Virus record (IMG/VR): IMGVR_UViG_3300042566_000075
Location: 1 to 61,397 of that record
Reading direction: 5' to 3' (one strand)
DNA length: 61,397 bases
Source of the DNA: a virus
The stretch's first letter is position 1. Each line of letters begins with the position of its first letter. Below, in pieces: positions 1,975-61,397 of the stretch. The position numbers and the translations under genes are program-made. The notes below the pieces were generated by a model. The model ran no database searches. It was given only the letters and a program-made list of their open reading frames with translations, and had not been told where the DNA came from.

Positions 1975-2901
1975 ATGTCCAATGAAGTTTCTATTTTCAA
2001 ACAGCCCGGTGCAATCTCGACTTCGGCTAACCGTGGTCAACTCAGTGAACTCGCCAAAAGTTTCGCTGCTAGCGTAGGGGGTGGCACTAACCGCCGTATC
2101 CAGACCAACACCAACGGGACGTTTAAGCGCCTTGTAAACGGTGAGCAGATTGGCGATGCGGTACGTGGCGACATTGATGTCATTATCGTCCATGCGCTGC
2201 CCAAGGTTAGCCGTGTGTTCTATGCTGGGGCTTACGACCCTAACGCTAAGCCAACTCTACCAGATTGCTGGTCGAACAACGGCGACGCCCCAGAAGCTGC
2301 TGCGGGTAACAAGCAGTCAGCAAACTGCGTAAGCTGCCCTAAGAACGTGGTCGGCTCAGGCAGTAACGGTAAGGGCCGCGCATGCCGCTATCAGCGTCGT
2401 ATCGCAGTCATCCTACCTAACGACCCCACAGGGGAAGTGTACCAGTTCAACGTCCCAGCCAAGTCGCTCTTTGGTAAGGGTGTGGGCAATGTGCATCCCT
2501 TCGAAAGCTATGTGCGCTACCTGCTAGCTAACCACGAGTCGCCAGATACAGTGGTAACCAACATTAGCTACGACCTCAACGCCGATAGCATGGAGCTTCT
2601 CTTTACTCCTGTGCGCGGTACCAGCGACGAAGAGCGGGAACTCGTTAAACGTGCGCAGAGTGATGCAGCTACAAAGCGTATGTGCGAACTAACCGTAGCC
2701 CAGCAGGATGGTGCAAAGAAGGAGCCATCCGCTCCTGCACCCGCACCTAAAATTGCTAGGTCGGATGAGCCGGACGAAGAAGCTTCCGCTGTTATAGCGG
2801 AGCCTACGAAGCGCCCTGCTGCTAAGAGTGACGCTACCGCAGAACCTAAAGCCAACCTAGCTGCTGTCATTAGCAACTGGGGTAGTGATGAGGACGATTA
2901 A
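1975..2901 (+). CDS. Probable single-stranded DNA-binding protein
   Basis: A 308-residue protein. The centre has four cysteines at 98, 118, 121 and 137, a plausible zinc site. A central domain of about 240 residues is followed by a low-complexity Ala/Pro/Glu linker and a very acidic tail ending WGSDEDD. A zinc-bearing core plus an acidic C-terminal tail is the layout of T4 gp32-type proteins, and an acidic tail is also seen in bacterial SSB and T7 gp2.5, where it recruits partners. The gene sits between the helicase and the primase-helicase. The assignment rests on architecture and context, as I see no diagnostic OB-fold motif. Confidence 0.55.
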   Translation: MSNEVSIFKQPGAISTSANRGQLSELAKSFAASVGGGTNRRIQTNTNGTFKRLVNGEQIGDAVRGDIDVIIVHALPKVSRVFYAGAYDPNAKPTLPDCWSNNGDAPEAAAGNKQSANCVSCPKNVVGSGSNGKGRACRYQRRIAVILPNDPTGEVYQFNVPAKSLFGKGVGNVHPFESYVRYLLANHESPDTVVTNISYDLNADSMELLFTPVRGTSDEERELVKRAQSDAATKRMCELTVAQQDGAKKEPSAPAPAPKIARSDEPDEEASAVIAEPTKRPAAKSDATAEPKANLAAVISNWGSDEDD

Positions 2902-3134
2902 TGACCTACGGCTATAGCCTCAAAACCATTGAAGCTAATAGCGAAGCTGACGATGGGCATCTGGGTGTGCAGCTAGGGAGGACGTGCATTAAGCATGGAG
3001 TCTCTGTGAGCAAAGTTGCACGTGACCTTGGTGCCACACGGCAGTCTGTATACAACTGGTTCTGCGGGGTTAGCGCCCCGCAGGGCGAGTTTATCGGGCT
3101 TATCCGTAAATACATCACCAACTTCCCTGTTTAA
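2901..3134 (+). CDS. Small helix-turn-helix protein
   Basis: A 77-residue protein whose ATG shares a base with the upstream TAA stop (TAATG), so it is translationally coupled to the SSB-like gene. Residues about 34-56 (VSVSKVARDLGATRQSVYNWF) are a clear Cro/CI-type helix-turn-helix with a recognition helix ending in the common VYNWF pattern. It lacks room for a separate oligomerisation domain. It could be a regulator and is one candidate ligand for the dispersed palindromes at 45.5-55.4 kb, although it lies far from them on the linear map. Confidence 0.75.
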   Translation: MTYGYSLKTIEANSEADDGHLGVQLGRTCIKHGVSVSKVARDLGATRQSVYNWFCGVSAPQGEFIGLIRKYITNFPV

Positions 3135-24173: not shown

Positions 24174-24357
24174 GCTCTTTCTCTTCACCCGTATCAATTA
24201 GCCATTCGGTGCAATAGCCCATAGCGATGCACTTGGGCTTCTTGCAGATTTCCTCCTGCCAGTTTTCTGGGTCTTGGCAGTCATAGCGATAGCGGTCTTC
24301 GCAGCCCATGAGGGCCAGCAAAGCTAGAAACAGTGCATATGGTTTGACGTTAACCAC
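24157..24357 (-). CDS. Small Cys-rich lipoprotein, spanin-like
   Basis: A 66-residue protein starting at GTG 24357, just after AAGGA at 7 nt; the longer open frame upstream overlaps another gene and is not used. Residues 5-19 are a basic-then-hydrophobic signal (VKPYALFLALLALMGC) ending in a lipobox-like L-M-G-C with Cys19. The mature part is rich in Cys, Asp and Trp (YDCQDPENWQEEICKKP). Location beside the endolysin suggests an outer-membrane spanin or other surface lipoprotein. Confidence 0.65.
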   Translation of the reverse strand: MVNVKPYALFLALLALMGCEDRYRYDCQDPENWQEEICKKPKCIAMGYCTEWLIDTGEEKEHEAEK

Positions 24358-45577: not shown

Positions 45578-45590
45578 CTCACTTTGTTAG
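45578..45590. promoter_or_regulatory. Dispersed palindrome site 1 (one mismatch)
   Basis: CTCACTTTGTTAG, one change from CTAAC-N3-GTTAG. It lies in the leader of the first early gene. Confidence 0.6.
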
Positions 45591-45697
45591 GTAGTTTCGT
45601 GCGATTTTTCTTGTGTTATCCCTCAAATTGTGGGACAAACAAATCATCGAGAGAGCAACAACGCTACTCGATACCACACACAATAGGAGCAAACATT

Positions 45698-46180
45698 ATG
45701 ACTAACACAGTATCAGTAACAGCAGCACGCAATGCCTACATGAAGGCTACCGAGTCTACATATGGTAAGCTGCGCGAATATGCCGAGAGCCTTACCGAGC
45801 AGCTAGGCGAAGGTTGGTGGCTTATCCCAATGAAAGGCCCGCTGTCTGGTAATGAAGCCAAGGTGCGGGAAGCTATCCGAGCAGAGAAGGCTCTAGTGCT
45901 TGAGCTAGCCAAGGAGAAGAAGGCCAAGAACCCTAAGTATAATGAGTATAAGCCTTGGTCTGACGTGCTTAAGTATGTGAAGCCTGAAGTCAAGAAGGGT
46001 GCTGGTGCTAATGCGCCACGGGATATCCACGACCGCTTTGTCACCGAGCTTACCAAGCTCTATAAGGCAGGCAAGGCAGATGAGAACCCGACCGAGGCAA
46101 CACTCGACGCTACGTTCTTTATCGGCAAGGGCCTCGAAATACTCGGCATCGACCTGACACAATTCAACCTAATGGACTAA
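45698..46180 (+). CDS. First early protein, unknown function
   Basis: A 160-residue protein. I use ATG 45698, 8 nt after AGGAG, not the longer frame from 45584. It is mostly helical (SVTAARNAYMKATESTYGKL; AKVREAIRAEKALVLELAKE) with a Lys-rich middle and ends in FFIGKGLEILGIDLTQF. No domain is recognised. It is followed by two hairpins, so it may be transcribed alone at high level. Confidence 0.75.
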   Translation: MTNTVSVTAARNAYMKATESTYGKLREYAESLTEQLGEGWWLIPMKGPLSGNEAKVREAIRAEKALVLELAKEKKAKNPKYNEYKPWSDVLKYVKPEVKKGAGANAPRDIHDRFVTELTKLYKAGKADENPTEATLDATFFIGKGLEILGIDLTQFNLMD

Positions 46181-46187
46181 TCGGGAA

Positions 46188-46207
46188 GGGGAGGCGCAAG
46201 CCTCCCC
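46188..46207 (+). other. Perfect GNRA-loop hairpin after early gene 1
   Basis: GGGGAGGC (46188-46195), GCAA tetraloop, GCCTCCCC (46200-46207). There is no T-run, so it is not a normal terminator; it may protect the mRNA 3' end. Confidence 0.7.
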
Positions 46208-46210
46208 GAC

Positions 46211-46223
46211 CTAACTAAGTTAC
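46211..46223. promoter_or_regulatory. Dispersed palindrome site 2
   Basis: CTAACTAAGTTAC (core intact, outer base differs), between two hairpins. Confidence 0.7.
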
Positions 46224-46237
46224 AACCCCTCACCGAA

Positions 46238-46264
46238 CCCTCATGCGCAAGCATGGGGGTTTTT
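46238..46264 (+). terminator. Rho-independent terminator with GCAA loop
   Basis: CCCTCATGC pairs with GCATGGGGG (one G-T pair) across a GCAA loop and is followed by TTTTT. It ends the transcript of the first early gene. Confidence 0.85.
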
Positions 46265-46295
46265 GTTTGCACCTCGCACAGCAGGGTGAACGCGT

Positions 46296-46308
46296 CTAAC
46301 TTAGTTAG
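46296..46308. promoter_or_regulatory. Dispersed palindrome site 3
   Basis: CTAACTTAGTTAG, both half-sites perfect, in non-coding DNA. Confidence 0.75.
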
Positions 46309-46363
46309 GTGTCGCCATGATAGTAGTCCTGCGGATGAGGCGACCAAGTGGGTAGGTGAAAAC

Positions 46364-46787
46364 CTTACAATACATAAACCTTACGTTACTAGCCCTAACT
46401 AAGTTAGACCCCCATGATAGTAAGCATGAGGATGAGGCGACCGAGGTATTGTAAGGAAAGTTGGGTAACGTAAGAAAAGTAAGCCCTATTGTAAGAAAAT
46501 GACCCACGCATTTCTGCGCTTTGTAAGGGTCGTAAGGGTTGTAAGGTTTTTTTCAGGGTTCGCTCCGGAAAGACGCCCTCTCGCAGATGCACCGCGTAAC
46601 CCGTAAGAAAAATCGCCCCAGCCCTTATTATTATTATTTTTACCTTACTTTCTTACATTACAACCAATTTCCTTACTGAAACCCGCAGGCTTCTGCCATT
46701 TTCTATTGTAAGTTTTTCTCTCTCACTTTTCTTACATTACCCCAATTTTCCTTACAAAGCGCAGTTTTCCGTCACCCATTTCCTTAC
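46364..46787. other. Candidate replication origin: GTAAG/CTTAC array with AT-rich core
   Basis: Eighteen copies of GTAAG or its complement. Nine GTAAG run at 46420, 46451, 46470, 46479, 46491, 46523, 46532, 46541 and 46603. An AT-rich TTATTATTATTATTTTT core (46624-46640) follows. Then come mostly CTTAC at 46644, 46652, 46672, 46731, 46751 and 46783, with one GTAAG at 46708. Two more CTTAC lie at 46364 and 46380. The extended consensus is about TGTAAGRAAA. Inverted iterons around a melting region resemble an initiator-bound origin; this is inference. Confidence 0.55.
46395..46407. promoter_or_regulatory. Dispersed palindrome site 4
   Basis: CTAACTAAGTTAG, perfect half-sites, at the left edge of the GTAAG array. 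Confidence 0.75.
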
Positions 46788-46792
46788 ACTGC

Positions 46793-46805
46793 CTAACCTT
46801 GTTAG
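46793..46805. promoter_or_regulatory. Dispersed palindrome site 5
   Basis: CTAACCTTGTTAG, 5 nt before the 19-bp promoter block of promoter A and 27 nt before its -35. Confidence 0.8.
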
Positions 46806-46810
46806 ACGTG

Positions 46811-46861
46811 CCCGACCTCGTGCCCACATGACTTGACATAAGAGGGACTTTGTGTTACATT
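46811..46861 (+). promoter_or_regulatory. Promoter A with 19-bp upstream block
   Basis: CCCGACCTCGTGCCCACAT (46811-46829), then -35 TTGACA (46833-46838), a 17-nt spacer and -10 TACATT (46856-46861). Block and spacing are shared with promoter B at 49167. The start of the transcript (AAAAAGAAAAA) is also shared. The block may bind an activator. Confidence 0.8.
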
Positions 46862-46903
46862 AAAAAGAAAAACAAAAGGCCAGACAGGTTCGACCCAACG
46901 GAC

Positions 46904-46916
46904 CTAACAAAGTTAG
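46904..46916. promoter_or_regulatory. Dispersed palindrome site 6
   Basis: CTAACAAAGTTAG, 2 nt before AAGGAG of the zinc-finger gene, downstream of promoter A. Confidence 0.8.
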
Positions 46917-46930
46917 AGAAGGAGCAAAAT

Positions 46931-47122
46931 ATGCACTGCAATTGTGGCGATGAAATAAATCCGAGACGCGTAGCCCTTGGCTACCGAACATGTCCTGTGT
47001 GTGGGGACCGAGAGGCACGGCAGGTAAAGTTTACCACTGTGCCTCTCAACAAGTCCAACTACGTTGTGGTCTCCGACTACCGCGAACTGGCATGGCTCAA
47101 CCCTAAGAACGTCAACATCTAA
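46931..47122 (+). CDS. Small zinc-finger protein
   Basis: A 63-residue protein from ATG 46931, 6 nt after AAGGAG. Cysteines 3, 5, 21 and 24 (MHCNCGDEIN, TCPVCGDRE) form a likely zinc finger, similar in size and pattern to DksA/TraR-like fingers, although the coiled coil of that family is absent. First gene after promoter A; may be a regulator or an RNA/DNA adaptor. Confidence 0.7.
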   Translation: MHCNCGDEINPRRVALGYRTCPVCGDREARQVKFTTVPLNKSNYVVVSDYRELAWLNPKNVNI

Positions 47123-47131
47123 CAAAGTGAG
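47119..47131. promoter_or_regulatory. Dispersed palindrome site 7 (one mismatch)
   Basis: CTAACAAAGTGAG. It overlaps the TAA stop of the zinc-finger gene and the ribosome site (GTGAGG) of the next gene. Confidence 0.6.
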
Positions 47132-47139
47132 GAATGAAA

Positions 47140-47379
47140 ATGGTTAGTGACTTAAGCATTAAGATGAAAGCGGCTGTCCTGCTACGCAGATATGACCAGC
47201 TACGCAGAGAGCTACGAGAGACAGAGTATGAGTTAGGCCCAGCCGTGGCCGAATACGGCATACAGACTGGACGCCGAGGCCTATCGAAAGACCACTTCCG
47301 TAGCGAACTTGAACGTGAGGAACTTATCCGACTGGAGATAGCAGCCGAGCGTGACGCATGGGAGAAAGCAAATGGATGA
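47140..47379 (+). CDS. Small helical early protein
   Basis: A 79-residue protein; ATG 47140 lies 7 nt after GTGAGG. It is almost wholly helical and charged (LLRRYDQLRRELRETEYELG), likely a coiled-coil dimer. Function is unknown. Confidence 0.6.
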   Translation: MVSDLSIKMKAAVLLRRYDQLRRELRETEYELGPAVAEYGIQTGRRGLSKDHFRSELEREELIRLEIAAERDAWEKANG

Positions 47380-47521
47380 GCTGAACGATTGGGACAAGGT
47401 AGCACTGGCCTTCGACATACTGGAGAACGCCGAGGTGATGCAGGAGTTTGACACAACACTATGGATACAGGTGGACCGCGACTTGTGGGAAGCCTTTTGC
47501 GAAGAAGGATATAACGGATGA
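47372..47521 (+). CDS. Small acidic early protein
   Basis: A 49-residue protein whose ATG lies inside the end of the previous gene and whose TGA overlaps the next ATG. The product is acidic (LAFDILENAEVMQEFDTTLW). It is supported by packing only. Confidence 0.5.
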   Translation: MDELNDWDKVALAFDILENAEVMQEFDTTLWIQVDRDLWEAFCEEGYNG

Positions 47522-47676
47522 CCGAACAACCAACCAAAGACCGCAACTACTACCGCATGCTCACCAACAACGAGCTTATCGCCACCGCCAAGGAACGCTT
47601 ACACCTAACAGAGTTAGAGCAGGTGCTAACCGAGCGGTTACTAAAAGCCGAGCGCGAGAGGAAGAACAATGACTAA
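47518..47676 (+). CDS. Small helical early protein carrying a palindrome site
   Basis: A 52-residue charged helical protein (NNELIATAKERLHLTELEQV). Start overlaps the upstream stop. The palindrome at 47605-47617 encodes the L-T-E-L codons of this gene. Confidence 0.5.
   Translation: MTEQPTKDRNYYRMLTNNELIATAKERLHLTELEQVLTERLLKAERERKNND
47605..47617. promoter_or_regulatory. Dispersed palindrome site 8 (in coding sequence)
   Basis: CTAACAGAGTTAG read as CTA ACA GAG TTA in the gene at 47518. Confidence 0.75.
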
Positions 47677-47767
47677 CACACTACTACATATAGCAGCCGA
47701 GATATTCTTCGTAAGCGCAGGTATCTTCGCAGTGTGGGCCATCCACACAACCATCAAGGGGAAATGA
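47669..47767 (+). CDS. Tiny membrane peptide
   Basis: A 32-residue peptide with one hydrophobic segment (IAAEIFFVSAGIFAVWAI). Its start overlaps the previous gene and it ends 1 nt before the next ATG. Such packing suggests real expression; function unknown. Confidence 0.45.
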   Translation: MTNTLLHIAAEIFFVSAGIFAVWAIHTTIKGK

Positions 47768-47768
47768 C

Positions 47769-48185
47769 ATGGGTTATCGGTCAGAAGTAGATGTAGTTAT
47801 CTACGCACCAGTGGACAGCGGCACATCATACCCGTTGCTCAAGCTGTGGTTCGACGAGAACTACCCCGTCAAGGAAGCCAAGGACGAATGGGAAGCGAGG
47901 ATTACCTACGACCCAGAGAGCCGAGGCATCTCCGTCTACTACAATGACGTGAAGTGGTATGACACCTACGAACATCCGCAAGCGGTGGAGAGAGTGTTCG
48001 ATGCCATCGACCGACTGCTAGACGAGCAAGCAGTGTTGGGCGACCCCACGGCGTTCAACATAGCATGGGAGTTTGTGCGCCTTGGCGAGGAAGACCAAGA
48101 CACCGAGATAAGGATGAGCGCCAACGCAGATGCGGTAATCGCAGTGAACCGCTCAACAGAGATATCGTTTCAATCACAAGCCTAA
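47769..48185 (+). CDS. Conserved early phage protein
   Basis: A 138-residue protein beginning GYRSEVDVVIYAPVDSG. The strand-helix pattern (ISVYYNDVKWYDTYEHPQAV; RVFDAIDRLLDE) is familiar from small proteins of uncharacterised family in phage early regions. ATG follows AAGGGGAAATGAC. No catalytic residues can be named. Confidence 0.65.
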   Translation: MGYRSEVDVVIYAPVDSGTSYPLLKLWFDENYPVKEAKDEWEARITYDPESRGISVYYNDVKWYDTYEHPQAVERVFDAIDRLLDEQAVLGDPTAFNIAWEFVRLGEEDQDTEIRMSANADAVIAVNRSTEISFQSQA

Positions 48186-48194
48186 CAAAGTTAG
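48182..48194. promoter_or_regulatory. Dispersed palindrome site 9
   Basis: CTAACAAAGTTAG. It overlaps the stop of the upstream gene and abuts the AAGGAG of the next. Confidence 0.8.
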
Positions 48195-48207
48195 AAGGAG
48201 CAAACAC

Positions 48208-49152
48208 ATGGGCTGGAATAATCACTACCGCAACTGGGACATACCCAGACTTGCATCATACAACGACGCAGTGAAGCGCGAGGCGACAGTCAAACCTATT
48301 CGCGGCGATGCTAACGGAACTAAGCCGCTGGGTGCGCGCAACAAGAAATACTACAACATACGCAAGGAGGGTAATGACATCGTGGTGCGGATGCATGCCA
48401 CGGACATCGTGCGTTACCATCCAGATAATACGCTAACCATACAGAATGGTGGCTGGGTATCGCCCTCGACGCACGACATGTTCAACATGTTACTTGGGCT
48501 ACATATGCGCACCTTCCACTACAGGGCTTGGGTTACTTGCTACATGCGCAGGGCCATAGGGTCAAACGCGCCTGAGATTGTGCATGGCGAGTGGCGGCTA
48601 CCTAACAACGTGCCAGTGAGGATTGTCCCGCACGAAGGCCACTGGCTACTCGACGACATGGAAGAGAACGTGACGCATGCGGTCAACCGCAAGGCAGCTA
48701 ACAAAGTTAGGAAGGAATACGCAGGGTTTCGGACATACCTCTCCGCAATGACCAAGCTGCGCACCGAGTATGTATCGCAGCCGCGCTGGAATGGGCCTGA
48801 TGTGACCCTACCCGTGGTGAAGGTAAGCCGCAGTGAGCTTGAGGCGCACAACCTCATAGACTACACCGCTGTGGTGGAAGCTAACCGCAAGTGCGCGTCA
48901 CAAGGAGACAACCTCAAGGGACTGATACGTAGCGACAAGCCGGAGGATAACTACCGAGCCTTGCTTACTATCATGAGAAGTGCCCACGAGGGACGGTATT
49001 GGATTAGCTCCGAGGGTATATCCATCGCACCAGAGCGCATAACCAAAACGTTCGAAGAACTAGTCATGTTCATGCACCGCTATGAGGTGCTGGAGCGCAA
49101 GCCAGCGAAGCGGGGTGTGCCGACACGGGACCGCTATATAAATTGGTTCTAA
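48208..49152 (+). CDS. Conserved early protein, unknown function
   Basis: A 314-residue protein; ATG 7 nt after AAGGAG. Its N-terminal half (KPLGARNKKYYNIRKEGNDI, VVRMHATDIVRYHPDNTLTI, GGWVSPSTHDMFNMLLGL) is a block shared by many phage proteins of unknown role. The C-terminal half is helical and basic and includes AANKVRKEY, encoded by a palindrome site. It ends at palindrome 11, which overlaps its TAA. Confidence 0.7.
   Translation: MGWNNHYRNWDIPRLASYNDAVKREATVKPIRGDANGTKPLGARNKKYYNIRKEGNDIVVRMHATDIVRYHPDNTLTIQNGGWVSPSTHDMFNMLLGLHMRTFHYRAWVTCYMRRAIGSNAPEIVHGEWRLPNNVPVRIVPHEGHWLLDDMEENVTHAVNRKAANKVRKEYAGFRTYLSAMTKLRTEYVSQPRWNGPDVTLPVVKVSRSELEAHNLIDYTAVVEANRKCASQGDNLKGLIRSDKPEDNYRALLTIMRSAHEGRYWISSEGISIAPERITKTFEELVMFMHRYEVLERKPAKRGVPTRDRYINWF
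48698..48710. promoter_or_regulatory. Dispersed palindrome site 10 (in coding sequence)
   Basis: CTAACAAAGTTAG, read as GCT AAC AAA GTT AGG. Confidence 0.75.
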
Positions 49153-49161
49153 CAAAGTTAG
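49149..49161. promoter_or_regulatory. Dispersed palindrome site 11
   Basis: CTAACAAAGTTAG, 5 nt before the block of promoter B. Same geometry as site 5 with promoter A. Confidence 0.85.
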
Positions 49162-49166
49162 AGGTC

Positions 49167-49217
49167 CCCGACCTCGTGCCCACATCACTTGACTTGGGTA
49201 TATTATTGTGCTACAAT
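49167..49217 (+). promoter_or_regulatory. Promoter B with 19-bp upstream block
   Basis: The same 19-bp block as promoter A (49167-49185), -35 TTGACT (49189-49194), 17-nt spacer, -10 TACAAT (49212-49217). The downstream palindrome is site 12. It drives the AAA+/VWA operon. Confidence 0.85.
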
Positions 49218-49260
49218 AAAAAGAAAAAGCTGGGAAATCAGCCACCTAGAGTAAACAAAC

Positions 49261-49273
49261 CTAACAAAGTTAC
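49261..49273. promoter_or_regulatory. Dispersed palindrome site 12
   Basis: CTAACAAAGTTAC between promoter B and the ribosome site of the AAA+ gene. Confidence 0.8.
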
Positions 49274-49291
49274 ACACGAAGGAGCAATATA

Positions 49292-50359
49292 ATGTCTATT
49301 GATTTTGGTTCAAACATCTCGCTTGCCGAAGCCGCAGAGCTTATCGCAGCTATCCCCGACAATCGGTTCCTACTTGAGGGTGAGCCTGGGATTGGCAAGT
49401 CCAGTATCATGAAGTCGCTCAAGGCCAAGCTAGGTGACCGCTACGTCTATGCCTACTTTGACTGCGCTCAGAAAGACCTTGGCGACATCGCCATGCCGAG
49501 CGTGAACCGCGAGCTACGGGTAACAGAGTATTTCCCCAATGCTGCGCTCCAGTTGCAGCATGGCAAGCCAGCAGTCATCATGCTTGACGAGTTTGCTAAG
49601 GCTCCGCCGCCTGTGCAGAATATGCTTCACCCGCTACTCGAAGAACACAACCCACGGCTAGGCGACATTGAGCTACATCCAGACTCAATCGTGTTCCTTA
49701 CGTCTAACTTGTCAAGCGATGGTGTTGGCGATGTTATCAAGGGCCATACTCTTAACAGAGTATCCAGAGTGCGCGTAGCCAAACCAGACAGCGACCAGTG
49801 GCTTGAGTGGGCTATCAACAACGACATCGAGCCTGTTGTCATGGCTTGGGTAAAGCAGTTCCCTCATGCGCTGGCTTCATACACTGACGGCACGCAGAAC
49901 GAGAACGCATATATCTACAACCCCAAGGCTATGCAAAAGTCGTATGTCAGCCCACGCTCTTTGTCTCGTGCTTCTAACATAGTTAGGCGTCGTGAGCAGG
50001 TATCATCCAACGCTCTTACCGCTGCGCTATCAGGCACAATCGGTGAGGCAGCAGCGCGGGATATGCAAGCCTACATCACATACCAAGACCAGCTACCGAC
50101 ATGGGAACACATCACATCCAAGCCCAATGATGCGGCTATCCCTGCGTCAGCAGGTGCATGTGCGGTGCTTATCTTCGGTGCAATCATGAAGGTGACCAAA
50201 GAGACAATGGCTCCGTTCATGACCTACCTGTCTCGCTTCGAACCAGAGTGGCAAGCATGCTTCGCTATTAACATTGCGAAGAACCCACAGCGTCAGTCGG
50301 TTGCGTTTTCATCCGCTGCGTTCGCTAACTGGGTGCGGGACAATGAGGACTTACTCTAA
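49292..50359 (+). CDS. MoxR-type AAA+ ATPase
   Basis: A 355-residue protein; ATG 7 nt after AAGGAG. Walker A GEPGIGKSS at about 30-38, Walker B VIMLDEFAKAP near 97, sensor FLTSN near 145. Overall it matches the MoxR/CobS clade that works with a VWA partner as a remodelling chaperone, for example in metal insertion. The next gene encodes such a partner, and promoter B drives both. Confidence 0.85.
   Translation: MSIDFGSNISLAEAAELIAAIPDNRFLLEGEPGIGKSSIMKSLKAKLGDRYVYAYFDCAQKDLGDIAMPSVNRELRVTEYFPNAALQLQHGKPAVIMLDEFAKAPPPVQNMLHPLLEEHNPRLGDIELHPDSIVFLTSNLSSDGVGDVIKGHTLNRVSRVRVAKPDSDQWLEWAINNDIEPVVMAWVKQFPHALASYTDGTQNENAYIYNPKAMQKSYVSPRSLSRASNIVRRREQVSSNALTAALSGTIGEAAARDMQAYITYQDQLPTWEHITSKPNDAAIPASAGACAVLIFGAIMKVTKETMAPFMTYLSRFEPEWQACFAINIAKNPQRQSVAFSSAAFANWVRDNEDLL
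49974..49986. promoter_or_regulatory. Dispersed palindrome site 13 (in coding sequence)
   Basis: CTAACATAGTTAG, read as TCT AAC ATA GTT AGG in the AAA+ gene. Confidence 0.75.
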
Positions 50360-50381
50360 TACCAACACAAGGAGCAAACTA

Positions 50382-51578
50382 ATGGATATGCAGAAAGCAG
50401 AGCGTAAGCTCAAGAAAGTCAAGATTAACCTCATGCGCAACCCCATGTTCGCATTGTGGTCTGGCATCATGATGGTCGGTAAGACTAGCGTAGCAGAGGA
50501 CGTGCCAACGGCATGCACCAATGGCCGCGACGAGATATACGGCTTGGAGTTCATAACAAAGTTAGACGAGAAGCAGCTAGGGTTCGTCGTGCTACACGAG
50601 AACATGCACAAGGGCTTACGCCACATGACAACATGGCAGAAGCTCCGAGCAGAGAACCCACGCCTAGCTAACATCGCAATGGACCATGTAATCAACCTTA
50701 TGATTATGGAGATGGACCCGAACGAGCAAGTCATCGCCATGCCTCGCCTTGATGATGGCACACCGATGGCGTGTTACGATACCAAATACAAAGGCATGAA
50801 CACCAAGCAAGTCTTCGACCTACTGAAGCAGGACAATCCAGATGGCGAAGGTGGCGAAGGCTTCGACGAGCATGACTGGGATGGGGCCAAGGAGATGACC
50901 GCCGAGGACCGCAAGGAACTAGAGCGCGAGGTGGACCAAGCCCTACGCCAAGGCCAGATAGCAGCTATGAAAGCTACGGGTAAAGGTGGGCTAAGTGTCA
51001 ACCGAGAGCTAGGCGACATGCTCCAGCCACAGATAGACTGGCGCGAAGCACTGCGTGAGTTTGTGTCCGCTACCTGCAATGCCAAGGATGCGTCATCATG
51101 GCGCAGGGTCAACAGGCGCATGCTGGGCCAAGATGTGTATCTTCCTACGCTAGTAGGGGAGAAGGTCGGACATATCGCTATCGGCATAGACACAAGTGGC
51201 TCTATCGGTGCGGACGAACTCAATGTGTTCCTGTCCGAGGTCAAGGCTATCGTCGAGGAGGTGCATCCCGACAAGCTAGACCTCATCTATTGGGATGGCA
51301 ACGTAGCGGGGCATGAGGTCTACGACATGGCAACTATGTCTAACCTTGTTAGCTCTACTAAGCCAGTAGGTGGAGGCGGCACTGACCCAACCTGTATGAT
51401 GCGCTACCTCAAGGAACAGAACATCAAGCCAGAGTGCATCATCCAGCTGACTGACGGGTATGTCTGTGACTGGGGTGACGAGTGGGATGCGCCCATCATG
51501 TGGGTAATCTCAGAGTCGCGCTACACATCGGGACGTATCGTAGCGCCAGTGGGTAAGACTGTGCATATCAAGGGGTAA
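50382..51578 (+). CDS. VWA-like protein with metallopeptidase motif (DUF2201-like)
   Basis: A 398-residue protein from ATG 50382, 7 nt after AAGGAG. VVLHENMHKGLRH (about 71-75) is an HExxH zinc motif. A C-terminal VWA domain has the MIDAS DTSGSIG (about 269), GGGGTDP and TDG (about 356) elements. The DUF2201-type metallopeptidase-VWA fusion is usually paired with MoxR AAA+ proteins, as here. The pair may form a RavA-ViaA or CobS-CobT-like remodelling machine; its phage client is unknown. Confidence 0.8.
   Translation: MDMQKAERKLKKVKINLMRNPMFALWSGIMMVGKTSVAEDVPTACTNGRDEIYGLEFITKLDEKQLGFVVLHENMHKGLRHMTTWQKLRAENPRLANIAMDHVINLMIMEMDPNEQVIAMPRLDDGTPMACYDTKYKGMNTKQVFDLLKQDNPDGEGGEGFDEHDWDGAKEMTAEDRKELEREVDQALRQGQIAAMKATGKGGLSVNRELGDMLQPQIDWREALREFVSATCNAKDASSWRRVNRRMLGQDVYLPTLVGEKVGHIAIGIDTSGSIGADELNVFLSEVKAIVEEVHPDKLDLIYWDGNVAGHEVYDMATMSNLVSSTKPVGGGGTDPTCMMRYLKEQNIKPECIIQLTDGYVCDWGDEWDAPIMWVISESRYTSGRIVAPVGKTVHIKG
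50553..50565. promoter_or_regulatory. Dispersed palindrome site 14 (in coding sequence)
   Basis: ATAACAAAGTTAG, read as ATA ACA AAG TTA GAC in the VWA gene (core intact). Confidence 0.65.
51340..51352. promoter_or_regulatory. Dispersed palindrome site 15 (in coding sequence)
   Basis: CTAACCTTGTTAG, read as TCT AAC CTT GTT AGC in the VWA gene. Confidence 0.75.
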
Positions 51579-51588
51579 GGAGCAAACA

Positions 51589-51834
51589 ATGACTAAAGCA
51601 ATCATACGTTACGGCTACGACAACTATATCGTGGAGGCAGAGGATGCGCTGCGCATACATGAAATCCTAGCCAAGGCTGAACACTACCATAGGAACTACC
51701 GCTCAACAGCAGATGGCGGCACTACCTACCATGTCTGGGAGCAGGACATGAGCAGTGAGATGCGTGACATAACGCTTATGCCCGATGGCCTTTACCGCAT
51801 GGCAAAGCTGGCGGGTAAACCAGAAGATAAATAA
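51589..51834 (+). CDS. Small early protein, unknown function
   Basis: An 81-residue protein; ATG 6 nt after AAGGAG. It is mixed alpha/beta (KAIIRYGYDNYIVEAEDALR; TTYHVWEQDMSSEMRD). It lies between the VWA and DUF3150-like genes, so may belong to that complex. No domain recognised. Confidence 0.65.
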   Translation: MTKAIIRYGYDNYIVEAEDALRIHEILAKAEHYHRNYRSTADGGTTYHVWEQDMSSEMRDITLMPDGLYRMAKLAGKPEDK

Positions 51835-51859
51835 AATACCGGATAGCAAACCGGACGAC

Positions 51860-51872
51860 CTAACTAGGTTAC
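51860..51872. promoter_or_regulatory. Dispersed palindrome site 16
   Basis: CTAACTAGGTTAC in the gap before the DUF3150-like gene, about 12 nt upstream of AGGAG. Confidence 0.65.
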
Positions 51873-51896
51873 ATATAACACAATAGGAGCAAACTA

Positions 51897-52739
51897 ATGA
51901 GCATTACATCTTCGTCGGTTCTTGTCGAACTGAACATCTCCGTCTGGACAGCCAACAAGCTGGACAAGGACACCACCACCAAGCTGACCGCTGACAGCAA
52001 CGCGACTAGCGACGCAGCCCAAGTGCGTAAGAACCTCATGGCTGGCACAACCTTACGCAAGGACATAGCGGACTTCGCTGCGCTGTGCCGCACATGGCAC
52101 AACAGCCAGACCCTACCTTGGGCAGACCGAGGTTCTAGGCTACTACCCACAAGCCTCTTCATGGCATACAAGACCGAGGTTAACGCACGACGCGCTACGT
52201 TCACGCAGTTGGTAGATAAGTTTCGCCTCGAATACCCGAAGCTGATGACCACTGCGGCACAGCACATGGGCGACCTACATGACCCTGCAGATTATCCGAG
52301 CGTGGATGAGGTGATGGACAAGTTTGGCTTCCGCCTTGTGTTCTCTCCTGTGCCAGAGGCGGGTGACTTCCGTGTGGACATACCCAACCAAGAACTCGAC
52401 GCCATACGCAAGGAATATGATGCTAACTTTGTTAGCCGTGTTGACGAAGCCATGCGCACCCCGTGGGAGCAACTGCACAAGATGCTGACCACTATGTCTA
52501 ACAAGCTAGGGCTAGAGGAGAAGACCCGCTGGCACGACACCTTCCTCACGAACGCACAGGAGATGTGCGGGATGCTTACTCACCTCAACCTCACTGGCGA
52601 CCCCAAGCTAGAGGATGCGCGGCGCAAGCTGGAGTCGGCGTTGATTGGCTTGGATATTGATGACCTCAAGGAAAGCGAAGACATCCGCACCAACGTCAAG
52701 GGCAAGCTCGATACAATCCTTTCGGGATTTGATTGGTAA
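51897..52739 (+). CDS. DUF3150-like protein of the AAA+/VWA cluster
   Basis: A 280-residue protein; ATG 8 nt after AGGAG. The N-terminal VLVELNISVWTANKLDKDTT and LPWADRGSRLLPTSLFMAY blocks resemble DUF3150-type proteins that I associate with MoxR/VWA loci in phages. It is helical throughout with a charged C-terminus. It is a probable third component of the AAA+/VWA module. Family assignment is from memory and moderately certain. Confidence 0.6.
   Translation: MSITSSSVLVELNISVWTANKLDKDTTTKLTADSNATSDAAQVRKNLMAGTTLRKDIADFAALCRTWHNSQTLPWADRGSRLLPTSLFMAYKTEVNARRATFTQLVDKFRLEYPKLMTTAAQHMGDLHDPADYPSVDEVMDKFGFRLVFSPVPEAGDFRVDIPNQELDAIRKEYDANFVSRVDEAMRTPWEQLHKMLTTMSNKLGLEEKTRWHDTFLTNAQEMCGMLTHLNLTGDPKLEDARRKLESALIGLDIDDLKESEDIRTNVKGKLDTILSGFDW
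52433..52445. promoter_or_regulatory. Dispersed palindrome site 17 (in coding sequence)
   Basis: CTAACTTTGTTAG inside an extended 15-bp palindrome GCTAACTTTGTTAGC, read as GCT AAC TTT GTT AGC. Confidence 0.75.
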
Positions 52740-52762
52740 GGCACAGGTAAGGAGTAACAACA

Positions 52763-53632
52763 ATGACTAAGCAACTATACCCATGCGAGGGTTTCCCGAA
52801 CGTATATATCAACCGCAACCCCGCCTTCGTAGACCGTACTACGCGGTTTGTGGTCCACGACAGGATGCTACCTCTAATAGAGGAGCTGTGTAAGCACCGC
52901 CCACAATGGACGTTTAAATCCCTTAACGCATCAATAAACACAGATGTAGTGGCGGCACATCACTTTGATGTTTATGAGAACGGCCAGTCGCTAGGCGAAA
53001 TCTCCGTTGAGTCAGGCTATCGCGCTGATACAGGGTCGATAACCTATTACCGGTTCGACAACCCAAGGTTGTCCGGTAAGCGCCAGCGCGGTATTTGGAA
53101 TAAAACCAGTAAGCTCGACCTAGCAGTGAAGAACATACTTAAAGCCTTTCACGCTAAGACGTTAGCCGAGACCATTGTAGAGGTCGAGCGACAGATAGAG
53201 GTTAAGCTGAACGAGAATACTAGGACTGCTAATGCAGATTTTGACAGCGGCTTCAGACGCATGGGCGCGTTCCTCACGGGATATGTAATGAGAAACTGGG
53301 ATGCGGTAGCACCTGCGCTAAAGGCAGCGGGCGCACCAGTGCCAGACGACCTGCCTGAGCGTCTTGCCGTTAGGAACGAAGCAGAGGGTGTAGAACTGGC
53401 CTACCGCAACCAAGGAGGGTTTACTATAATCACGCGAGGCAGCGACTACATCATGGTGCGCGGCTTCGGGGACGAGCGAGAGACAGAGGTCAAGTCCAGC
53501 GAACAGCTGACAGACAACATCCGCCGTAACCTTGGCTTCCTCAAACTGACCGAGGGCAGTGCGATTATACCCAACGTAGGTGTGCGACTTAACGAGAGCA
53601 CCTTCTTTGTTATTGATAAGGAACTTGTATGA
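52763..53632 (+). CDS. Early protein, unknown function
   Basis: A 289-residue protein; ATG 7 nt after AAGGAG-like sequence (AAGGAGTAACAACA). N-terminal half mixed alpha/beta (FDVYENGQSLGEISVESGYR), then a charged helix (IVEVERQIEVKLNENTRTA) and a C-terminal strand-rich region. I do not recognise it. Confidence 0.65.
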   Translation: MTKQLYPCEGFPNVYINRNPAFVDRTTRFVVHDRMLPLIEELCKHRPQWTFKSLNASINTDVVAAHHFDVYENGQSLGEISVESGYRADTGSITYYRFDNPRLSGKRQRGIWNKTSKLDLAVKNILKAFHAKTLAETIVEVERQIEVKLNENTRTANADFDSGFRRMGAFLTGYVMRNWDAVAPALKAAGAPVPDDLPERLAVRNEAEGVELAYRNQGGFTIITRGSDYIMVRGFGDERETEVKSSEQLTDNIRRNLGFLKLTEGSAIIPNVGVRLNESTFFVIDKELV

Positions 53633-53805
53633 CCGAGGAACTAAAACGCAAACGCGGACAGCGTGGGCTGGGCAAGCGTCCGGCCTTGGGAGGTCACGTT
53701 ACCATACGCCTATCGAGCGAAGCTATGGACTTCTATAGGAGCTTCCCTAGCTTCACAGCTAAGATGCGTGAAGTCTTAACAGACTACGCTGATACACACA
53801 GATAA
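53629..53805 (+). CDS. Ribbon-helix-helix-like small DNA-binding protein
   Basis: A 58-residue protein overlapping the previous stop (ATGA). The basic N-terminus (KRKRGQRGLGKRPALGG) is followed by HVTIRLSSEAMDFYRSF and AKMREVLTDYAD, the strand-helix-helix pattern of RHH proteins, close to the C-terminal part of BrnA-type antitoxins. RHH dimers bind short inverted repeats. Palindrome site 18 lies 14 nt downstream. It is a leading candidate ligand for the palindromes; binding is unproven. Confidence 0.6.
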   Translation: MTEELKRKRGQRGLGKRPALGGHVTIRLSSEAMDFYRSFPSFTAKMREVLTDYADTHR

Positions 53806-53818
53806 CATATAGTTGCTC

Positions 53819-53831
53819 CTAACTATGTTAG
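53819..53831. promoter_or_regulatory. Dispersed palindrome site 18
   Basis: CTAACTATGTTAG immediately before the terminator hairpin. Confidence 0.75.
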
Positions 53832-53835
53832 ACTA

Positions 53836-53866
53836 GGCCGCCTTTCGGGGCGGTCTTTTTTTTCTT
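53836..53866 (+). terminator. Rho-independent terminator
   Basis: A 7-bp stem GGCCGCC with GGCGGTC (one G-T pair) around TTTCGG, followed by a run of eight T. It ends the promoter-B operon. Confidence 0.88.
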
Positions 53867-53875
53867 CATTAGCGT

Positions 53876-53903
53876 TTGACAATGTAAATTGAGGGTGTAT
53901 GGT
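53876..53903 (+). promoter_or_regulatory. Candidate promoter for the second early operon
   Basis: TTGACA (53876-53881), 16 nt, TATGGT (53898-53903). It is followed 24 nt later by ATG 53930 via AAGGAG. It resembles the promoter at 1490. Confidence 0.55.
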
Positions 53904-53929
53904 GAGGAGCCAAACAAGGAGTAAACAAG

Positions 53930-54130
53930 ATGAATAATACAAGAGAACTTCGCGCATTCCTAGTCGAACAGATGCAGGGTGTAGCTTCGGGTAAGGTCAA
54001 CAGTGAGAAGGCCAAGTCCATTTCCAACCTGTCACAGCAAATCTACAACACCATTAACATCGAAGTGAAGATGGCGTTGTCGAAGGCAAAGCTGAATGGG
54101 CAAAGCCTAGATGCTGTCGAGTTCAATTGA
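53930..54130 (+). CDS. Small conserved early protein
   Basis: A 66-residue helical protein; ATG 9 nt after AAGGAG. RELRAFLVEQMQGVASGKVN and AKSISNLSQQIYNTINIEVK is a pattern I know from small proteins upstream of phage replication genes. Function unknown. Confidence 0.7.
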   Translation: MNNTRELRAFLVEQMQGVASGKVNSEKAKSISNLSQQIYNTINIEVKMALSKAKLNGQSLDAVEFN

Positions 54131-54812
54131 CCTAACAGCACTTCCTGATGACCTCGTCCGTCAACTGGAACGCACCGTCACAGACTACGAGCGTAAGCAG
54201 AATAAGCTACGCTCATGGCAAGAGGTGCTTGACCACGGGACGGACGAGGAAATCATGGAGAAAGCGCAGGAGGAGTGCGACAAGGGCGCACCCATTACCT
54301 TTGCACGGAACTACCCTAGGATTGGCTGGCCGTTAATGACAGACCTAGCCCGTGAGATTGTCCCGTACAATATGCGAGACCATCCGCGCAGACCCGTCAT
54401 CATGAAGGGTGCAATAGAAATCTGCTACAGGAGGTTTTCGCTATCAGAGGGCCGCAACGCACCAAACGGCTGGGTAATCCGTGTCTTTGAACGGGCAATG
54501 CGTATGAGCAAGAAGACGCTCATCGAGTGGCAGGAAATATCAGACTTCGCTAGTGAGCTAGCAACTAAGATTGCTAACCGGCATTACGGAGTAACCTACC
54601 ACTTTTGGGACTATACCAGACCCCGAAGGTATGAAGCCCGTCGAGATGAACAATTAGTTTTGATGAGCGGACGCTGGGTTAGCCTACCGCACGAACAATA
54701 TAGAAACGTGCAGATGTTCCAAAAGGTAATCCGCAAGACAGAGAAGCTGGAAGACCGACTGGCACTACTACGCGCAGCAAGGAAAGAACGAGCCGATGGC
54801 AGCAACACCTGA
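54111..54812 (+). CDS. Early protein, unknown function
   Basis: A 233-residue protein whose ATG overlaps the end of the previous gene by 20 nt. It is mostly helical and charged (LVRQLERTVTDYERKQNKLR; VIRKTEKLEDRLALLRAARK). No domain recognised. It may act in DNA replication since it precedes a nuclease, but that is guesswork. Confidence 0.6.
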   Translation: MLSSSIDLTALPDDLVRQLERTVTDYERKQNKLRSWQEVLDHGTDEEIMEKAQEECDKGAPITFARNYPRIGWPLMTDLAREIVPYNMRDHPRRPVIMKGAIEICYRRFSLSEGRNAPNGWVIRVFERAMRMSKKTLIEWQEISDFASELATKIANRHYGVTYHFWDYTRPRRYEARRDEQLVLMSGRWVSLPHEQYRNVQMFQKVIRKTEKLEDRLALLRAARKERADGSNT

Positions 54813-55101
54813 GAAGAAAGTGAAGGATAAGGTTAAGTCCATCCTCACTGCACACGAGACATATTTTTTTCTACCCGCAACCCACGGCTTTGGCCGTAGC
54901 GGTGTCCCCGACATTGTAGCCTGTGTGAACGGTTGGTTCCTTGCGATTGAGTGCAAGGCAAACGGTGGTAAGACTACTGCCCTACAGGTGCGCGAGATTG
55001 AAGCGATACGCAGGTCTAACGGCGTAGCCGTAGTAGTAGACGAGACGAACTACGACATGCTCCCTGACCTCATCAAAAAACTGAAAGGGGAAACACGGTG
55101 A
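54796..55101 (+). CDS. VRR-NUC nuclease
   Basis: A 101-residue PD-(D/E)xK nuclease. Asp39 in GVPDIVA, Glu52 and Lys54 in IECKA, then GKTTALQ are the VRR-NUC signature. These small stand-alone domains cut DNA structures such as flaps or Holliday junctions in phages. It overlaps both neighbours, so it is co-translated. Confidence 0.85.
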   Translation: MAATPEKKVKDKVKSILTAHETYFFLPATHGFGRSGVPDIVACVNGWFLAIECKANGGKTTALQVREIEAIRRSNGVAVVVDETNYDMLPDLIKKLKGETR

Positions 55102-55394
55102 ACCAAGGTGTAGAGCTTTTACTCCAGCGGATGGATAGCCACCCTGAAGAGTTTAACACACACAACCCAGACAAGCGCGTCCGCGAGAAGTGGCACTGGG
55201 TGACGGGGCCGATTAAGACGCGGATGGACTTTATGAATAGGAACCCAGACGACGACCCAGTGATGCACTTCGAGTCCCTTGGGTTCCTGACAGACCGCGA
55301 AATCCTCATGCTTCATGATAAGTATATGAGCATCCAAGGAGACAGCTTCAGTCGCAGGGTTATGGCTACGCTACTAACAGATGGCGAAGCCTAA
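55098..55394 (+). CDS. Small early protein
   Basis: A 98-residue protein that starts at GTG overlapping the stop of the nuclease (GTGA). Its C-terminus (DREILMLHDKYMSIQGDSF) is helical. No domain recognised. Its gene ends at palindrome 19. Confidence 0.6.
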   Translation: MNQGVELLLQRMDSHPEEFNTHNPDKRVREKWHWVTGPIKTRMDFMNRNPDDDPVMHFESLGFLTDREILMLHDKYMSIQGDSFSRRVMATLLTDGEA

Positions 55395-55403
55395 CAGAGT
55401 TAG
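55391..55403. promoter_or_regulatory. Dispersed palindrome site 19
   Basis: CTAACAGAGTTAG, overlapping the stop of the upstream gene and about 18 nt before the AAGGAG of the HTH gene. This is the last copy seen. Confidence 0.75.
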
Positions 55404-61212: not shown

Positions 61213-61397
61213 ATGCAAATCGTTGATAATCGTGCATTGGTCCTGACGACCAGTGACCCAAGCCTAATAACTAAGAGCATACCTAAAAGCGTAATCATCG
61301 AAACCGGCGAAGTGGCCGTCAAGTGGGGGCTAAAAGAAGCCCAGACGCTGGCGTCCCTTGGCTTTGCCGATGTCCCATCACCTATTAAGCGCGACTA
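61213..61397 (+). CDS. SNF2-like helicase, 5' part (continues at 1)
   Basis: ATG 61213 follows AAGGTGG and opens the frame that continues in phase into position 1 when the ends are joined. The unique N-terminal 33 residues include QIVDNRALVLTTSDPSLITK. Positions 61271-61397 duplicate 1-127. Confidence 0.9.
   Translation, partial: MQIVDNRALVLTTSDPSLITKSIPKSVIIETGEVAVKWGLKEAQTLASLGFADVPSPIKRD
61271..61397. repeat. Contig-end direct repeat, right copy
   Basis: Identical to 1-127. Confidence 0.97.

Follow-up and report, generated by a model that had tools for sequence, protein, structure and literature searches.

A field of dispersed palindromes in the early region of a phage genome, most likely the binding sites of a new phage regulator

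We analysed the viral DNA of IMG/VR record IMGVR_UViG_3300042566_000075 over its full length of 61,397 nucleotides (hereafter the window), in which a 13-bp palindrome, CTAAC-N3-GTTAG, is scattered through the rightward early region. The ends of the window are identical over 127 bp (1-127 and 61271-61397), and the record is therefore circularly closed and represents a complete phage. Because the palindromes belong to the early region only, are under selection, and are present or absent together with one small early gene that had gone unnoticed, the field most likely consists of the binding sites of a new phage regulator. The comparisons presented below indicate that the palindromes are very probably DNA sites for a dimeric regulator, and the best candidate for the regulator that reads them, probably the right one, is the product of g45698 (45698-46180, plus strand), the first gene of the early region. 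The explanation that we favour as a whole, with a probability of about 0.5, is an operator field of a phage-encoded dimeric protein, most likely that of g45698, which represses early transcription.

A motif scan of the whole window for both half-sites found 17 exact copies of TAAC-N3-GTTA within 46212-55402, whereas 0.88 is expected by chance in the entire 61 kb and the maximum among 100 shuffles was four. Thirteen of these copies are perfect CTAAC-N3-GTTAG and the other four (46211, 49261, 50553 and 51860) are off by one outer base only; a single core mismatch is found in each of two further copies (45578 and 47119). These counts confirmed the array reported in the initial annotation, which had also claimed that the other 51 kb hold no copy; a single one is present there, at 24351 (TTAACCACGTTAG), and is consistent with a chance stray. 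A similar density of the motif elsewhere in the genome, which would have spoken against a field, was not found: the enrichment was limited to a spacer of three nucleotides, with 17 copies inside the early region and one outside, and other spacer lengths were at background. Copies with exactly one core mismatch were not enriched inside the region (2, against ~4.9 predicted by the frequency elsewhere in the genome), and the sites therefore appear to be all-or-none, either exact or not kept. The spacing of the sites showed no significant regularity (coefficient of variation 0.72, P 0.13).

The position of the palindromes relative to genes was far from that expected. Only 6 of the 19 (the 17 exact and the two mismatched copies) are fully intragenic, versus 86% expected from the coding density (P ~1e-7), and 13 are located at or between gene borders. 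In four cases the preceding gene takes its TAA stop codon from the palindrome, at 47120 (CTAACAAAGTGAG, 47119-47131, one core mismatch, gene 46931-47122), at 48183 (CTAACAAAGTTAG, 48182-48194, gene 47769-48185, ahead of the ribosome site of the next gene), at 49150 (CTAACAAAGTTAG, 49149-49161, gene g48208) and at 55392 (CTAACAGAGTTAG, 55391-55403, the rightmost copy, gene 55098-55394); all palindromes are given here without strand.

The intragenic copies are CTAACAGAGTTAG in open reading frame 47518-47676 (47605-47617), CTAACAAAGTTAG in g48208 (48698-48710), CTAACATAGTTAG in the gene of a MoxR-type ATPase (49974-49986), ATAACAAAGTTAG and CTAACCTTGTTAG in the vWA gene (50553-50565 and 51340-51352) and CTAACTTTGTTAG in g51897 (52423-52435). 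Five in-gene sites were compared in codon alignments with relatives, these being contigs that share the MoxR/vWA gene pair. The site cores were 90-100% identical, while third codon positions averaged 56-67%; the core at 48698 was identical in five relatives, and the core and spacer at 51340 were identical in six. When codons for the same amino acid were compared with those of the relative L008, the third position was conserved in 13 of 13 cases in site cores and in 550 of 934 elsewhere (P = 0.001). The codon comparisons thus indicate that the sites are kept by selection.

The dispersed-palindrome anatomy recurs in dozens of relatives and across ~100 metagenomic contigs of this phage group. Conservation in relatives had been proposed beforehand as a check, and the field is kept in the close ones: those whose contigs extend over the early region, 74-100% identical in vWA, have 13 to 18 copies of TAAC-N3-GTTA, almost all in the early region, which holds 14 of 14 copies in the complete relative G020 and 18 of 19 in the complete relative G003. 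A wider ring of relatives has CTAACA-N-TGTTAG, which retains the 13-bp frame and has a fixed centre, and another ring has TAACA-N2-TGTTA (14 bp). Farther lineages have unrelated palindromes, among them TACTGTC-N-GACAGTA, GTATGC-N5-GCATAC, GTCAC-N3-GTGAC, GTTAG-N8-CTAAC and TCCTAC-N-GTAGGA, in 5 to 19 dispersed copies each, against a maximum of 1 to 3 in simulated sequence of matching composition. The cyanobacterial Planktothrix phage Pag-Yong1 (L078/L079) has a field of its own, with 24 copies of GGTTC-N5-GAACC, 20 of them within the initial 41 kb of its record. From one lineage to the next, nearly the whole set of sites changes in concert, as expected if they are read by one protein.

The proposal that the palindromes are dispersed DNA sites of a regulator is supported by their conservation in relatives and within genes, by the bracketing of promoters described below, by their concerted change and by the extension of the dyad symmetry to the centre in sister lineages. 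The initial annotation had also allowed for regulation at the RNA level, in which a 5-bp stem with a triloop in early transcripts would serve for processing or protein binding. Such a stem is able to form and many copies stand directly ahead of ribosome sites; however, it is worth only about -1.1 kcal/mol, is frequently unformed in context, and is matched by no G-U compatible change in the imperfect copies (0 of 6). Copies are also present upstream of the predicted promoters P1 and P2. In sister lineages the symmetric arms are separated by only 1-2 nt, a loop that is impossible for RNA pairing, and RNA pairing therefore cannot be the source of the symmetry. An RNA element is thus disfavoured to the point of being barely plausible.

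The g45698 gene lies between the first two palindromes, CTCACTTTGTTAG upstream of it (45578-45590, the leftmost copy, one core mismatch) and CTAACTAAGTTAC directly 3' of it (46211-46223), which is followed by a terminator-like hairpin with a T run (46236-46265, plus strand, from a reading of the sequence). Of the loci around the window, those on contigs that include the left early region were scored, and the g45698 family was found in 27 of the 28 with the field and in none of the 6 without it (Fisher 5e-6). The MoxR tree requires two losses of the field, and the gene was lost in both. In most loci the gene starts at most ~170 bp from the leftmost palindrome, and distant lineages have a similarly sized gene after their first palindrome. 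The product, of 160 amino acids, is an orphan of a fast-evolving family, for which AlphaFold2 gave a confident all-helical model (pLDDT 86.7, pTM 0.56).

Natural replacements of the gene were also compared. L022, the sole field-bearing locus without the g45698 family, is 90-95% identical to L023 outside the block that replaces the gene; relative to L023, one aligned site is destroyed, another is altered at its centre and others are gone with the replaced block. L133 has CTAAC-type sites around its g45698 homologue and mostly ATAAC-type sites elsewhere, as after the import of a gene with its own operators. Field-free phages have a different gene in the g45698 slot, apparently of the phrog_1448 type in four of the loci examined, one of which was tested, and no other dispersed motif was found in these phages. 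The replacement gene of L147 (4577-5065) belongs to the phrog_1448 family and that of L022 (4370-5014) is similar by eye. The phrog_1448 family is found in phiKMV-like and other podophages, and is common early in the phiKMV-like ones.

Several observations weigh against g45698 as the gene of the regulator. Its product has no relative in Pfam, PHROG or PDB and no recognised DNA-binding domain, and its model has no fold match in either PDB or BFVD. The co-occurrence rests on only two or three independent loss events, and phrog_1448, the alternative gene family of the site-free phages, has no known function. The spacer class of the sites fits the g45698 tree no better than the MoxR tree (5 versus 6 changes), and L153 has 14-bp sites together with a protein of the 13-bp clade. 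The gene that follows the first palindrome in distant lineages is not recognisably homologous to g45698, and the AlphaFold2 model of that of L033 reached a pLDDT of 46.

Other candidate binders were considered and rejected. A protein of 58 amino acids with a ribbon-helix-helix (RHH) fold, weakly BrnA-like, is encoded at 53629-53805 (plus strand). It could be the repressor that reads the sites, given that RHH proteins are DNA-binding dimers on dyad sites and that a palindrome (CTAACTATGTTAG, 53819-53831) lies directly after its gene, ahead of a terminator-like hairpin with a T run (53834-53865, plus strand, also read from the sequence). Its presence, however, does not track the field: the protein is present without sites in L066, L069, L148 and L149, it is absent despite sites in L016, L022, L024, L068, L071, L155 and L156, and its 9 changes on the tree are uncorrelated with those of the field. 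In addition, the DNA-facing residues of its strand vary (T, H, N) with an unchanged site, and we consider it a quite improbable binder. A helix-turn-helix gene (2901-3134) is also present in genomes that lack the field in the region covered. The conserved g52763 (290 amino acids) is present in the site-free L066 and L069 and was undetected in some site-bearing lineages. As for an N4-like virion RNA polymerase acting on hairpin promoters, the protein of 2075 amino acids matches the DarB-like/LPD39 family of large polyvalent proteins and is without the motifs of such a polymerase.

Two predicted sigma70-like promoters, both on the plus strand, are each bracketed by a pair of palindromes. P1 (TTGACA-N17-TACATT, 46833-46861) is flanked by CTAACCTTGTTAG (46793-46805) and CTAACAAAGTTAG (46904-46916, in the leader ahead of a ribosome site), its putative upstream and downstream operators, which are 111 bp apart. 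P2 (TTGACT-N17-TACAAT, 49189-49217), which precedes the MoxR gene, is similarly flanked by the copy at the end of g48208 (49149) and by CTAACAAAGTTAC (49261-49273), 112 bp apart. Both L007 and L006 retain the bracket spacing at the two places, with no match to the promoter pattern at the first of them in L006; in L008 the pair at the equivalent of P1 is 124 bp apart. The promoter of the g45698 homologue is itself bracketed in L170 (by a pair 110 bp apart) and in L175 (109 bp). A distance of ~110 bp would be near a whole number of helical turns and may resemble that of looping operators. A near-identical box, CCCGACCTCGTGCCCACAT, is present upstream of both promoters, between the palindrome and the -35 element (46808-46837 and 49164-49193).

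Between g45698 and P1, the noncoding stretch 46364-46790 contains ~14 TGTAAG/CGTAAG repeats, a rightward cluster followed by leftward repeats, and recurs at the same place in L006, L007, L008 and L035; it is a candidate replication origin with iterons. Three palindromes flank this candidate origin. Two 34-nt direct repeats (CCATGATAGTA..GATGAGGCGACC, 85% identical) are located at 46315-46348 and 46412-46445, each directly after a palindrome, namely CTAACTTAGTTAG (46296-46308) and CTAACTAAGTTAG (46395-46407), both noncoding. The remaining copy, CTAACTAGGTTAC (51860-51872), is intergenic.

We infer that the g45698 protein dimerises, that the sites are its targets and that its binding represses. 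In the explanation that we favour, the protein would be made early in lytic infection and would bind the 17 to 19 sites as a dimer. Pairs of sites ~110 bp apart would hold P1 and P2, and in relatives also the promoter of the regulator itself, in repression loops, the downstream and in-gene copies would act as roadblocks, and early transcription would be turned down as the protein accumulates. That repression of early transcription is the main function of the field stands at even odds. It is also possible, at slightly less than even odds, that fast-evolving orphan helical proteins, each with its own palindrome, make up a module for early-gene control that is widespread in lytic phages; the gene and its 10 to 20 sites would then be gained, lost and exchanged as a unit, in the slot that phrog_1448 occupies in site-free phages.

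A dimeric phage protein could also bind the sites for a main role other than transcription, keeping the early half of the genome organised or protected or acting in its segregation or replication, in a nucleoid-like or parS-like manner. Most copies are away from promoters, six are in genes and three flank the candidate origin, and the authors who described the repeats of Cluster O mycobacteriophages judged a role in transcription initiation unlikely for these (PMC4351075). Against such a role, the sites keep to the early transcription unit and are strongly enriched at gene borders, the promoters are bracketed at a fixed spacing of 110 bp, and no ParA was found in 11 genomes; we regard it as unlikely. 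The binder could instead be a host transcription factor, the field of the phage following its host, and the site sequence does vary between lineages as host factors do. However, the presence of the field follows one phage gene and near-identical phages differ in it, which leaves a host factor very improbable.

Classical lysogeny, in which the phage would be temperate or plasmid-like and its immunity repressor would use the sites as stoperators, would agree with their autoregulatory arrangement and with a distribution that resembles that of Cluster A stoperators. However, no tyrosine integrase (PF00589), serine recombinase (PF00239) or ParA (PF01656) was found in the 11 genomes (the window and ten relatives), ParB itself not having been searched for. 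No prophage form was found among bacterial genomes, where the matches were contigs binned into metagenome-assembled genomes (beta-proteobacterial, Methylophilaceae and 'Bacillota' bins) and one Spiribacter island. The latter (L208, a Spiribacter salilacus scaffold) is chromosomal and palindrome-free, with a MoxR/vWA pair related to that of the phages and helicase-like genes nearby, and is perhaps a defence island. The exchange partner of g45698, phrog_1448, is moreover typical of phiKMV-like phages, which are known as strictly lytic. We consider lysogeny improbable: the phages with the field show no sign of it, and we read them as lytic.

The genome encodes a PolA-type DNA polymerase, a primase/helicase, a second helicase, a portal, a major head protein and the large polyvalent (DarB-like) protein. 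The nearest named phages by terminase (50-57% identity) are Phage DSL-LC04, phage 023Pt_psg01, Pelagibacter phages HTVC027P and HTVC023P and Planktothrix phage Pag-Yong1, and no named phage matched at the DNA level. No palindrome field was found in the parts of HTVC027P and HTVC023P that were scanned.

The initial annotation had compared the palindromes with the stoperators of mycobacteriophage L5, noting that a system with palindromic sites would be a distinct one. As in L5 and other Cluster A phages, the sites are dispersed between and inside early genes, mostly off promoters, and suited to silencing by roadblock. They differ in that the L5 sites are asymmetric, oriented with transcription and used by the immunity repressor of a temperate phage, whereas those studied here are perfect dyads, with the spacer AAA occurring on both strands, in a phage without integrase or ParA (with the same limit as to ParB). 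A strict stoperator reading is thus unsupported, because the sites are symmetric and the 11 genomes yielded no integrase, resolvase or ParA. A palindromic dispersed array with a 3-bp A/T spacer had already been described in Cluster O (PMC4351075).

In the Streptomyces phage phiC31, a phage repressor binds ~18 palindromic operators that are dispersed, many of them being located at early promoters. By description, these conserved inverted repeats are dispersed like the sites of the window; phiC31, however, is temperate and has a serine integrase. The SPBRE of Bacillus phage SPbeta, a 15-bp element at prophage promoters, is likewise repeated at many places of the genome and was found by sequence long before its binder, MrpR (PMC10516654). 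MrpR has a tyrosine-recombinase fold, whereas g45698 has no known fold relative. Hairpin promoters of the N4 type imply a virion RNA polymerase, which was not found here.

The closest published case is the array of the Cluster O mycobacteriophages (Corndog), a 17-bp TGTTCGG-N3-CCGAACA with a spacer of mostly AAA/TTT, present in 34 copies, about one third of them in genes and part intergenic, dense among the non-structural genes of phages without integrase or parAB; its function was reported as unexplained in 2015 and no cognate protein was pinned down (PMC4351075). The two arrays share the dyad, the A/T-rich 3-bp spacer, the many copies partly in genes and the lack of a detected integrase or ParA (ParB itself was not searched for here). 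They differ in sequence and in phage group, and in the window and its relatives a candidate gene co-occurs with the sites, lineages differ in motif and the sites are confined to one early region. A Cluster O-like anatomy is thus now seen in another phage group, with many motif variants, natural gene swaps and one co-occurring early gene, and the open question of what binds such sites, and why lytic phages have them, becomes a simple binding test. If true, the control-module reading would mean genome-wide early-gene silencing outside lysogeny, by many orthogonal protein-site pairs, and would also suggest a role for the unexplained repeats of Cluster O.

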